DNA of 64,000 nt from Roseovarius faecimaris (GTDB taxonomy: Bacteria > Pseudomonadota > Alphaproteobacteria > Rhodobacterales > Rhodobacteraceae). The translations under genes and the position numbers were made by a program. The stretch covers positions 2,672,501-2,736,500 of the forward strand of contig NZ_CP034348.1 of assembly GCF_009762325.1 (NCBI RefSeq), given 5' to 3'. How positions within the stretch are numbered: the first letter of the stretch is position 1; the number at the start of each line of letters is the position of its first letter. The notes below the pieces were generated by a model, which searched no databases, was not told the DNA's origin, and worked only from the letters and a program-made list of their open reading frames with translations. Positions 22,070-27,563 of the stretch are shown here, piece after piece.

Positions 22070-23857
22070 GTGGCAGATCATTCGCGCAAAGAGACAGGCA
22101 AAGGCGAGCATTCAACGCTGTCCGAGACCGACCGGAACGCGGCGATTGACCGGCTTTACGATGTCGCGCTGGATCCGGCGCGCTATGAGGCGCTGCTTGA
22201 CCATTGGGAAACCGCCATCCGGCCCCTGCGCGAGCATGCCGATTTCGAGGCGCCCCGCCTTCTGGACGACCCGCTGATTGCCGGGCATTTCGACCGGGCC
22301 AGCGCCTTTCTGGACCGGGTGGACACCTCGACCAAGGTGGATGAGATCGAAAGCATCCTGGCCCCGTTCGACCGGGTGGCGGCCTTTGTGATGGATGCCG
22401 AACAATCCATGCGCGCCGTGAACGATGCCGCACGCACCCATCTGGGGCTCAAAACAGGTGCCCGCCTGAGCGACCTGCCAATCAACCCCGAAGATATCGA
22501 GGCGGTACGCCGCACCCTGCGCTCCGTGCTTTCGGACAGCCCGGAAAACACGGCGATCCTGCGGGTGCGTTCGGCCCAGAAAGGCCAGTTCACGGTGCTG
22601 CGGCTACAGCTCTGCGCCACCGCCGACGGTCAGAAACTGGTGCTGGCGGCTTCCAACGAGGTGGGCTGGCCCGAGGGGTTCCGCGATATTCTGCGCCAGG
22701 CTTTCGGGCTGACCGCGGCAGAGGCCGATGTGGTGCGCGCGCTGGTGGAATGCGGCAGCCTTGCCGAGATTGCCGAGCAGCGCAGCCGCTCGCTCGATAC
22801 CATCCGCGCACAGGTGAAATCGATCCTGTCCAAGACCGAAACGCACAGCCAGGTGGAACTGGTCCGCCTCGCGCTTTCGATGATGGACATCATGAGCCTG
22901 ACGCTCAATGCCGCCCCTGGCCCGCGTGTTGTCAGCCGGGGCTATGGCAAGCTGGAGGAACGGGAGTTCAAATCTCTCGTTTCTGCTGACGGGCGGCGGC
23001 ATGACTACCTCGTGCTGGGCGAACCGACGGGCACACCGCTGCTGTTTCTGCCGCTGGATTATGGCTTGGTGCGCTGGCCTGCCCCGGCCGAGGCCGACGC
23101 CGCGCGGCGCGGGATACGGATCATCGTGCCGGTCCGCCCCGGGTATGGCCTGTCCGACCCGGTCCAAAAGAACGACGATTACGACAGGGCGCTGCTGGCC
23201 GATATTTTCGCCGTGCTCGATGCCGAACGGGTAAAGCGCTGCCCGGTGATCAGCCTTGGCGGTGACAGCTATTACGGCTTCCAGCTTGCCCTGCAACACC
23301 CGGACCGGATCAGCGCGCTGATCGGCTGTGCCGGGGTGCTGCCGCTGACCCGGCGTGAGCAGTTCGAGCGGATGGAGAAATGGCACCGGTTCATCCTGGC
23401 CGGTGCGAAATACACGCCACATCTGTTGCCCTTCATGGTCAAGGCCGGGTTCCTGCTTGCCCGCAAGATCGGCAAACGCGGCTTTGTGCACGCGGTCTAT
23501 GGTCAGTGCCCCGCGGATGTGGAGACCTTCGAAAACCCCGATGTCTTCGAAGCGATGGTGACCGGCTCGGAAGTGGCCCTGTCGGAGGATCATATCGCCC
23601 ATGCCGCTTTCTCGATGCAGATCCTGGGGCGCCAGCGCACCGACTGGTCCGAGGATCTCGACAAACTGAAGGGCCGCCTGCCCGTGATTTTCATGAACGG
23701 CCTTCAGGACCCCCAGATTCCCGAGGCGACCCTGCGCGATTTTCAGCGCGATCACGCCTGGATCGATTACCGTGAATATGACGATGCCGGACAGTTGGTA
23801 TTTTTCCGGCACTGGCGCGATGCGCTGGAGTGTGTGACGCCCTTTCTTGGCAATTAA
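22070..23857 (+). CDS. LuxR-type HTH regulator fused to an alpha/beta hydrolase
   Basis: A 595-residue two-part protein. The N-terminal ~205 residues hold a divergent PAS-like sensor region (FDRVAAFVMDAEQSMRAVN). Residues about 206-270 are a LuxR/GerE HTH: FGLTAAEADVVRALVECGSLAEIAEQRSRSLDTIRAQVKSI with partial consensus. From about residue 300 to the end is an alpha/beta hydrolase: PLLFLPLDYGL, IVPVRPGYGLSDP, a nucleophile-elbow region with Ser400 (GGDSYYG, not a strict GxSxG) and Asp547 in GLQDPQIP. The normal catalytic GH motif reads GQ (Gln575), but His581 follows in RHW. It may sense or hydrolyse a small signal and control genes. Start is GTG with AAAGGA upstream. Confidence 0.8.
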   Translation: MADHSRKETGKGEHSTLSETDRNAAIDRLYDVALDPARYEALLDHWETAIRPLREHADFEAPRLLDDPLIAGHFDRASAFLDRVDTSTKVDEIESILAPFDRVAAFVMDAEQSMRAVNDAARTHLGLKTGARLSDLPINPEDIEAVRRTLRSVLSDSPENTAILRVRSAQKGQFTVLRLQLCATADGQKLVLAASNEVGWPEGFRDILRQAFGLTAAEADVVRALVECGSLAEIAEQRSRSLDTIRAQVKSILSKTETHSQVELVRLALSMMDIMSLTLNAAPGPRVVSRGYGKLEEREFKSLVSADGRRHDYLVLGEPTGTPLLFLPLDYGLVRWPAPAEADAARRGIRIIVPVRPGYGLSDPVQKNDDYDRALLADIFAVLDAERVKRCPVISLGGDSYYGFQLALQHPDRISALIGCAGVLPLTRREQFERMEKWHRFILAGAKYTPHLLPFMVKAGFLLARKIGKRGFVHAVYGQCPADVETFENPDVFEAMVTGSEVALSEDHIAHAAFSMQILGRQRTDWSEDLDKLKGRLPVIFMNGLQDPQIPEATLRDFQRDHAWIDYREYDDAGQLVFFRHWRDALECVTPFLGN

Positions 23858-23866
23858 AATGTGTTT

Positions 23867-23882
23867 TACCCCATACGGGGTA
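23867..23882. repeat. Inverted repeat before the first small membrane protein gene
   Basis: TACCCC (23867-23872) and GGGGTA (23877-23882) form a perfect 6-bp stem around ATAC, 9 bp after the hydrolase-fusion stop, in an AT-rich stretch. It might be an operator or a weak hairpin; no T-run follows. Confidence 0.35.
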
Positions 23883-23938
23883 TGACGCTGATTTTTGAAC
23901 CGGCTAATTTTGAATCATTAGAAGACGAGTATTTTGAA

Positions 23939-24250
23939 ATGTCTGAATTTATTGAGTTTTTACGGGCTTATCCGGAGACGCTCCAAACCATCGGTGTCGT
24001 CGGGTTCTTGACCTATATTATCGGGTTCAAGTTGGTCCAGACAGGGCATTTATGCGGGAACGGGGTTGGCTTTGCGCTGACCAATGTGATCGCGGCGTGT
24101 CTTGTTCTTGTCTCGCTGGTGGGGGCGTTCAACCTGGCGTCCTTCCTGATCCAGGTGAGCTATATTTTGATCGGTCTTTACGGGATCGGCATGCGGCTGG
24201 CCAAGGCCCGGCGCACCCAACCCGGCAGAGACCTGGAGATTTTAGCATGA
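23939..24250 (+). CDS. Small integral membrane protein, CBU_0592-like, first of a tandem pair
   Basis: A 103-residue membrane protein with three hydrophobic segments: IGVVGFLTYIIGFKLVQTG, VIAACLVLVSLVGAFNLASF and SYILIGLYGIGM. It resembles the small CBU_0592-like family of unknown function. It aligns with the next gene across IGVVGF..Y..GF.LVQTGH..GNG, then VIAA...SL..AFNLA..L.Q.S...IG.YG...RL, so the two are paralogues from tandem duplication. I chose the Met at 23939 because it matches the start of the paralogue; an upstream Met at 23882 is possible. The upstream DNA is AT-rich compared with its neighbours. A terminator follows before the second copy. Confidence 0.65.
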   Translation: MSEFIEFLRAYPETLQTIGVVGFLTYIIGFKLVQTGHLCGNGVGFALTNVIAACLVLVSLVGAFNLASFLIQVSYILIGLYGIGMRLAKARRTQPGRDLEILA

Positions 24251-24320: not shown

Positions 24321-24713
24321 GCTCAAAGACGGAATTGACTGCGATGACAGAGCTTCTGACACTGTTGGAGGCCCCTCCGCTCAGCCCGCTGCAATGGATC
24401 GGCGTCGTGGGGTTTGCCATTTACATGCTGGGTTTCCTGCTGGTGCAGACCGGGCATATGGACGGCAATGGCATGCTGTTTCCGGGCTCGAAGGTCATCG
24501 CGGCCCTCTGCGTGATGTGCAGCCTGACAGAGGCGTTCAACCTGGCCACGCTGCTGGTGCAGATCAGCTTTGTCGTGATCGGCACCTATGGCGTGGCGGC
24601 CCGCCTGCTGCGCCTGCGCTCAGCCAGACGGCAGGCCGCAATCAGGTTTCATCCCGAGCGCCGGACGGCGGATCGCAGAACGCTCAGCCGCGGCGTCGGA
24701 ACGGACAGCACCG

Positions 24714-27563
<2,850 letters not shown>

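Follow-up and report, generated by a model that had tools for sequence, protein, structure and literature searches.

A PAS-LuxR regulator joined to an alpha/beta-hydrolase domain without the catalytic serine and histidine in Roseovarius faecimaris, a candidate ligand receptor

The stretch of Roseovarius faecimaris DNA analysed in this work (the window; 64,000 nucleotides) carries a gene whose predicted product looks like an apparently complete PAS-LuxR regulator followed, in the same chain, by an apparently complete alpha/beta-hydrolase fold. The loss of the catalytic serine and histidine from the hydrolase of this protein is well supported, and we consider it rather probable that the protein is a cytoplasmic one-component regulator in which the dead hydrolase serves as an occupancy receptor for a small molecule. 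The open reading frame is uninterrupted, starts with GTG, is preceded by an AAGGA sequence about 9 bases 5′ of this start, and is a genuine gene. Its features are as follows:

22070..23857, + strand: gene of the PAS - LuxR HTH - alpha/beta-hydrolase-like regulator, 595 aa (open reading frame; conserved family)
22124..22327, + strand: N-terminal helical region, residues 19-86, with low-confidence predicted helices at 19-34, 36-56 and 68-86 and a conserved RLYDVALDP motif
22337..22663, + strand: PAS-like domain, residues 90-198 (strand/helix order; PDB matches to the PAS domains of EL222, VqmA, PYP and PpsR; PAS_4 in 6/30 relatives)
22703..22873, + strand: predicted LuxR/NarL-type HTH DNA-binding domain, about residues 212-268 (GerE profile; 63 residues at 1.4 Å to the DNA-binding domains of LiaR/VraR)
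22970..23848, + strand: alpha/beta-hydrolase fold, residues 301-593 (Abhydrolase_1; Foldseek match to 9wlv; VIA match to 3qit)
23252..23278, + strand: degenerate nucleophile elbow SLGGDSYYG, residues 395-403 (the Ser column is occupied by Gly397 and position Nu+2 by the invariant Asp399)
23342..23614, + strand: cap region, residues 425-515 (lowest entropy of the chain among 42 core sequences)
23708..23710, + strand: Asp547, kept acid position (42/42 core sequences)
23792..23794, + strand: Gln575, catalytic His column (42/42 core sequences; opposite the His of 9wlv)

The preliminary description of this DNA had recognised a sensor-like N-terminus, a LuxR-type HTH in the middle and a complete-length hydrolase at the C-terminus, and this layout was confirmed. 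Pfam profiles matched GerE at residues 214-268 of the window protein (E 5.9e-4; 19.8 bits, below the cut-off of 23.5 bits) and Abhydrolase_1 at residues 344-579 (E 3.1e-6, above the cut-off). Among 30 family members, GerE was found in 29 (best E 6.4e-8), Abhydrolase_1 in 22 and PAS_4 in 6, and the order of the domains is common to the relatives; the HTH is thus matched by its profile across the family. About 325 residues, mainly of hydrolase fold, extend beyond the HTH. The Autoind_bind profile was not matched in the window protein (E<=1), nor was it among the families found in the 30 members.

Structure models were built from only eight sequences (the window protein and related loci), which limited their quality: the full-length AF2 model had a mean pLDDT of 60, with values of 85-92 in the best blocks of the hydrolase core and 70-81 in most blocks of the PAS domain, and it was poor in the N-terminal helices and in the cap, where pLDDT fell below 50 at residues 427-524. 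The pocket geometry of the model is not firm because of these values in the cap. Comparison of the full-length model with the PDB by Foldseek returned the alpha/beta hydrolase 9wlv (E 1e-12). The predicted hydrolase region (residues 295-595) matched alpha/beta hydrolases with Z scores up to 21.5, the value obtained with VIA for the thioesterase 3qit (2.6 Å over 199 residues), and matched the plant receptors 5hzg (D14) and 6azb (KAI2-like) with Z scores of 17.7 and 17.1, respectively. Residues 80-290, modelled separately, reached a mean pLDDT of 74 and had EL222 and VqmA as best PDB matches (Foldseek, E 1e-6 to 7e-5), with Z scores of about 11 against PYP-type PAS domains and of about 10.5, over 63-66 residues, against the DNA-binding domains of LiaR/VraR/NarL. 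The sensor-like N-terminus therefore corresponds to a PAS-like domain whose predicted fold is that of EL222 and VqmA.

An HMM alignment with 9wlv, a hydrolase of solved structure, placed Gly397 opposite the nucleophile serine and Gln575 opposite the histidine. In the AF2 model, a strand formed by residues 391-396 leads directly into a helix at 397-409. Since these two independent methods agree, the register of the elbow was taken as fixed, and the nucleophile of the elbow (Ser/Asp/Cys) has no counterpart in the window protein, which has Gly397 at that position. Asp399, Asp547 and Gln575 are each invariant in the core clade (42/42), position 397 is occupied by Gly in 29, Ser in 11 and Ala in 2 of these 42 proteins, and the full Ser-Asp-His set was observed in none of them (0/42). 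Ser397 defines a subclade of 11 members of the genus (L086-L097), with elbows such as CLSGDAYYA, and all of these keep Gln575. The canonical alpha/beta hydrolase of the same genome (L011) reads Ser-Asp-His. It had been suggested beforehand that an altered elbow, GDSYYG, holds Ser400 as the nucleophile, with Asp547 and a displaced His581 as its partners. The elbow is indeed altered, but a Ser400-Asp547-His581 triad was ruled out by both alignment and model: Ser400 lies past the elbow, inside the helix, and the column of the catalytic histidine is that of the invariant Gln575. Ser400 is Ser in only 16/42 core proteins and the variable position 581 is His in 21/42.

Mean column entropy among the 42 core sequences was lowest in the cap (0.84 bits) and the HTH (0.99), intermediate in the two parts of the hydrolase core (1.38 and 1.55) and in the N-terminal helices (1.40), and highest in the PAS domain (2.03). 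Conservation is thus highest in the cap and, among the domains of the chain, lowest in PAS. Judged from these sequences, the dead hydrolase, and its cap above all, appears to be more constrained than the PAS sensor. Because the cap and the HTH are the most conserved parts, the hydrolase fold seems to have remained under selection after catalysis was lost. We speak of loss, and not of gain, since the alpha/beta-hydrolase superfamily is mostly catalytic; the tree of the family is unrooted and silent on direction.

We propose that the PAS domain and the LuxR-type HTH would form a DNA-binding half, laid out as in VqmA and EL222, and that the C-terminal alpha/beta-hydrolase domain, its hydrolytic catalysis lost, would have the role of receptor. 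A small molecule may sit in the former active-site cavity beneath the conserved cap, and its presence there would be signalled to the PAS-HTH half, altering the arrangement of the putative dimer or of the HTH and thereby promoter binding. Of the two ideas put forward in the preliminary description, a retired enzyme serving as ligand pocket is the better one. Retirement is borne out by the substitution of the His column in all, and of the Ser column in most, of the core proteins, and by the cap being best conserved; binding of a ligand is what we infer from it.

The main rival to the pocket receptor is a cap that acts as an interface. The dead hydrolase would then be a structural or protein-binding module, used in dimerisation or in the docking of a partner, and PAS would be the sole sensor of small molecules. 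Conservation of the cap fits a protein interface too, and PAS-LuxR proteins such as VqmA sense and dimerise via PAS (PMC8284805). We nevertheless regard this explanation as unlikely, although it deserves serious attention: the high entropy of PAS is a poor fit with one PAS ligand shared by the family, and the invariance of D399 and Q575 at catalytic-site positions suggests that it is the old pocket that has been under selection. It has to be noted that our preference for a pocket receptor over a PAS-only sensor is based mainly on the higher conservation of the hydrolase and its cap in comparison with PAS.

The second of the earlier ideas, an active enzyme acting on its own inducer, by degradation or modification, with Ser400 or another nucleophile and a displaced histidine, appears improbable. 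The retention of Asp547 is in its favour, as is the presence of Ser-Asp-His or of an Asp nucleophile in some distant relatives. On the contrary, the variability of Ser400 and His581 in comparison with the invariant Gln575, together with the location of Ser400 in the helix after the elbow, speaks against it, and the window protein has no catalytic triad; destruction of an inducer is conceivable for the distant Ser-Asp-His relatives. Among 91 sequences, these were six (L052, L067, L068, L070, L077 and L079), and in the same set Asp-Asp-His was found in L046 and Asp-Ser-His in L047-L049 and L063. The combination of Asp in the nucleophile column with a kept His in the last five resembles the arrangement of epoxide hydrolases or haloalkane dehalogenases. 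Both GerE and Abhydrolase_1 were matched by Pfam in L052, L067, L077 and L047; in L068, L079 and L046 the hydrolase alone reaches the threshold. At least eight changes between His and non-His are needed on the unrooted tree, in which the distant rows sit on long branches and are of uncertain placement.

A wider reading, which we consider quite possible though somewhat less likely than not, is that single-chain PAS-HTH-hydrolase regulators form a broad family in proteobacteria and that their hydrolase has changed repeatedly from an enzyme to a pure receptor, with catalytic and dead versions coexisting. Such a family would be the bacterial equivalent of the gibberellin receptor.

Still less credit can be given to a mechanism of the RsbQ type within one chain, the hydrolase making a molecule that is read by PAS. 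PAS and alpha/beta hydrolase are a published sensing pair, but RsbQ needs its triad (PMC3183031), and here the catalytic His is absent in 42/42 and the Ser in 31/42 core proteins. Finally, a chance or annotation artefact, whether two genes joined by read-through or an ordinary enzyme whose N-terminus has decayed, might be thought of on account of the window protein's own GerE score below the Pfam cut-off, and is refuted by conservation, the same full-length chain being found in dozens of genomes and the GerE match in 29/30 members.

The survey of other genomes recommended in the preliminary description did reveal the same architecture elsewhere. The gene was found in 22/60 genomes of the genus, and matches were obtained in 39/149 genomes of the same family (E<=1e-20), in 13/385 genomes of a class sample (1e-30) and in 40/398 genomes of a phylum sample (1e-25), part of the latter matches being partial. 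Many relatives are 50-81% identical over the full chain. They include proteins of Roseovarius, Lentibacter, Sulfitobacter, Tropicimonas and Actibacterium, and plasmid-borne relatives occur in Aliiroseovarius, Paracoccus, Ruegeria, Agrobacterium, Peteryoungia and Pseudosulfitobacter. Two family members (L043 and L054, G271:C16) lie in tandem in a genome of another family, and in three orthologues from draft genomes (L009, L098 and L102) an internal stop or frame break, which may be an assembly error, separates HTH and hydrolase. The R. faecimaris genome has one copy, and the sole other match there is the plain Ser-Asp-His hydrolase L011. This hydrolase is encoded outside the window (G000:C2 2548715-2552092) in an open reading frame of 600+ aa that also contains, by eye, a glycosyltransferase-like region, an unusual fusion.

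The order of genes around the regulator is conserved in the genus: ftsX-type permease, IMPase, regulator gene and gcvP. In other genera the gene adjoins what we take to be a recN-bamD-lpxC-ftsZ block, the names being recognised from the sequence and not from a profile. Two genes of membrane proteins lie downstream in the window:

23861..24250, + strand: CBU_0592-family membrane protein, copy 1, whose true start is uncertain (NF047864, E 4.7e-20)
24335..24799, + strand: CBU_0592-family membrane protein, copy 2 (NF047864, E 1.3e-17)

Copy 1 is possibly co-transcribed with the regulator gene. A third copy is present elsewhere in the same genome, and further copies lie beside L022 and in the vicinity of two distant paralogues, L030 and L103. 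CBU_0592 proteins were rejected as a conserved partner: they adjoin about 4 distinct loci (the window and its orthologue, L022, L030 and L103) among about 150, a weak enrichment that is not general. The distant plasmid paralogues L147, L148, L149 and L151 have genes of VWA-domain proteins nearby or in divergent orientation; the proteins that flank the VWA-domain ones gave no Pfam match, and AraC regulators intervene in L148 and L151. Comparison of the neighbourhoods in the genus, in other genera and around the plasmid paralogues revealed no shared pathway and indicated no ligand. An AHL ligand was considered on the basis of co-occurrence, which was non-discriminating (LuxI homologues in 57/60 genomes of the genus vs the gene in 22/60). 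No shared palindrome was seen by eye in the 120 bases upstream of the gene in the genus alignment, and a conserved operator was accordingly rejected.

In deposited records the family is named either 'LuxR C-terminal-related transcriptional regulator' or 'alpha/beta hydrolase'. Many annotations of this common and conserved family therefore imply an enzyme, which the proteins of the core clade are very likely not. A literature search of open-access papers found no description of a single-chain PAS-HTH-hydrolase family. If the proposal of a pocket receptor is correct, marine Rhodobacteraceae would possess a candidate DNA-binding receptor.

Several known systems share parts of this architecture. 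VqmA, the PAS-LuxR quorum-sensing receptor of Vibrio and of phage VP882, and the LOV-HTH protein EL222 likewise have an N-terminal PAS domain followed by a LuxR-type HTH; both end at the HTH, whereas the window protein, about 16-19% identical to them, continues with a hydrolase domain of 290 residues. AHL-type LuxR regulators and LuxR solos have the HTH in common with it, but theirs is C-terminal and that of the window protein central, and the autoinducer-binding domain of the AHL-type LuxR proteins was not found in it. Ordinary alpha/beta hydrolases (9wlv, the arylesterase 1va4 and the thioesterase 3qit) have the same fold, and their acid is kept in the window protein; unlike them, it has Ser and His replaced and is fused to a predicted DNA-binding regulator. 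The hydrolase is no routine enzyme to which a degenerate N-terminus is attached. The plant receptors D14 and KAI2 keep the catalytic triad. Together with GID1, they use a hydrolase fold as hormone receptor; they are eukaryotic, with no DNA-binding domain in the chain, and we draw an analogy without claiming a common origin. GID1 receptors are non-functional carboxylesterases in which the catalytic His is replaced by Val/Ile (PMC11294565), a precedent for the receptor role proposed here; the His column is substituted in the core clade as well.

The closest published concept is that of RsbQ and RsbP-PAS, in which an alpha/beta hydrolase and a PAS domain likewise control an output. There the hydrolase and the PAS module are encoded by two adjacent genes, the outputs are a PPM phosphatase, a histidine kinase or a diguanylate cyclase, and the hydrolase depends on its triad; the authors proposed two models, in which the ligand is a product of the hydrolase (Model 1) or occupancy of the hydrolase is itself the signal (Model 2) (PMC3183031). 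The window protein differs in being a single chain, with a LuxR HTH as output and the triad lost. If the systems are comparable, a PAS domain and an HTH joined to a hydrolase without triad would agree with Model 2 but not with Model 1. The architecture is common to members that keep the triad and members that lack it, and the family would thus offer a natural test of the question raised for RsbQ-PAS, in which signalling by the product of the hydrolase could be distinguished from signalling by its occupancy.
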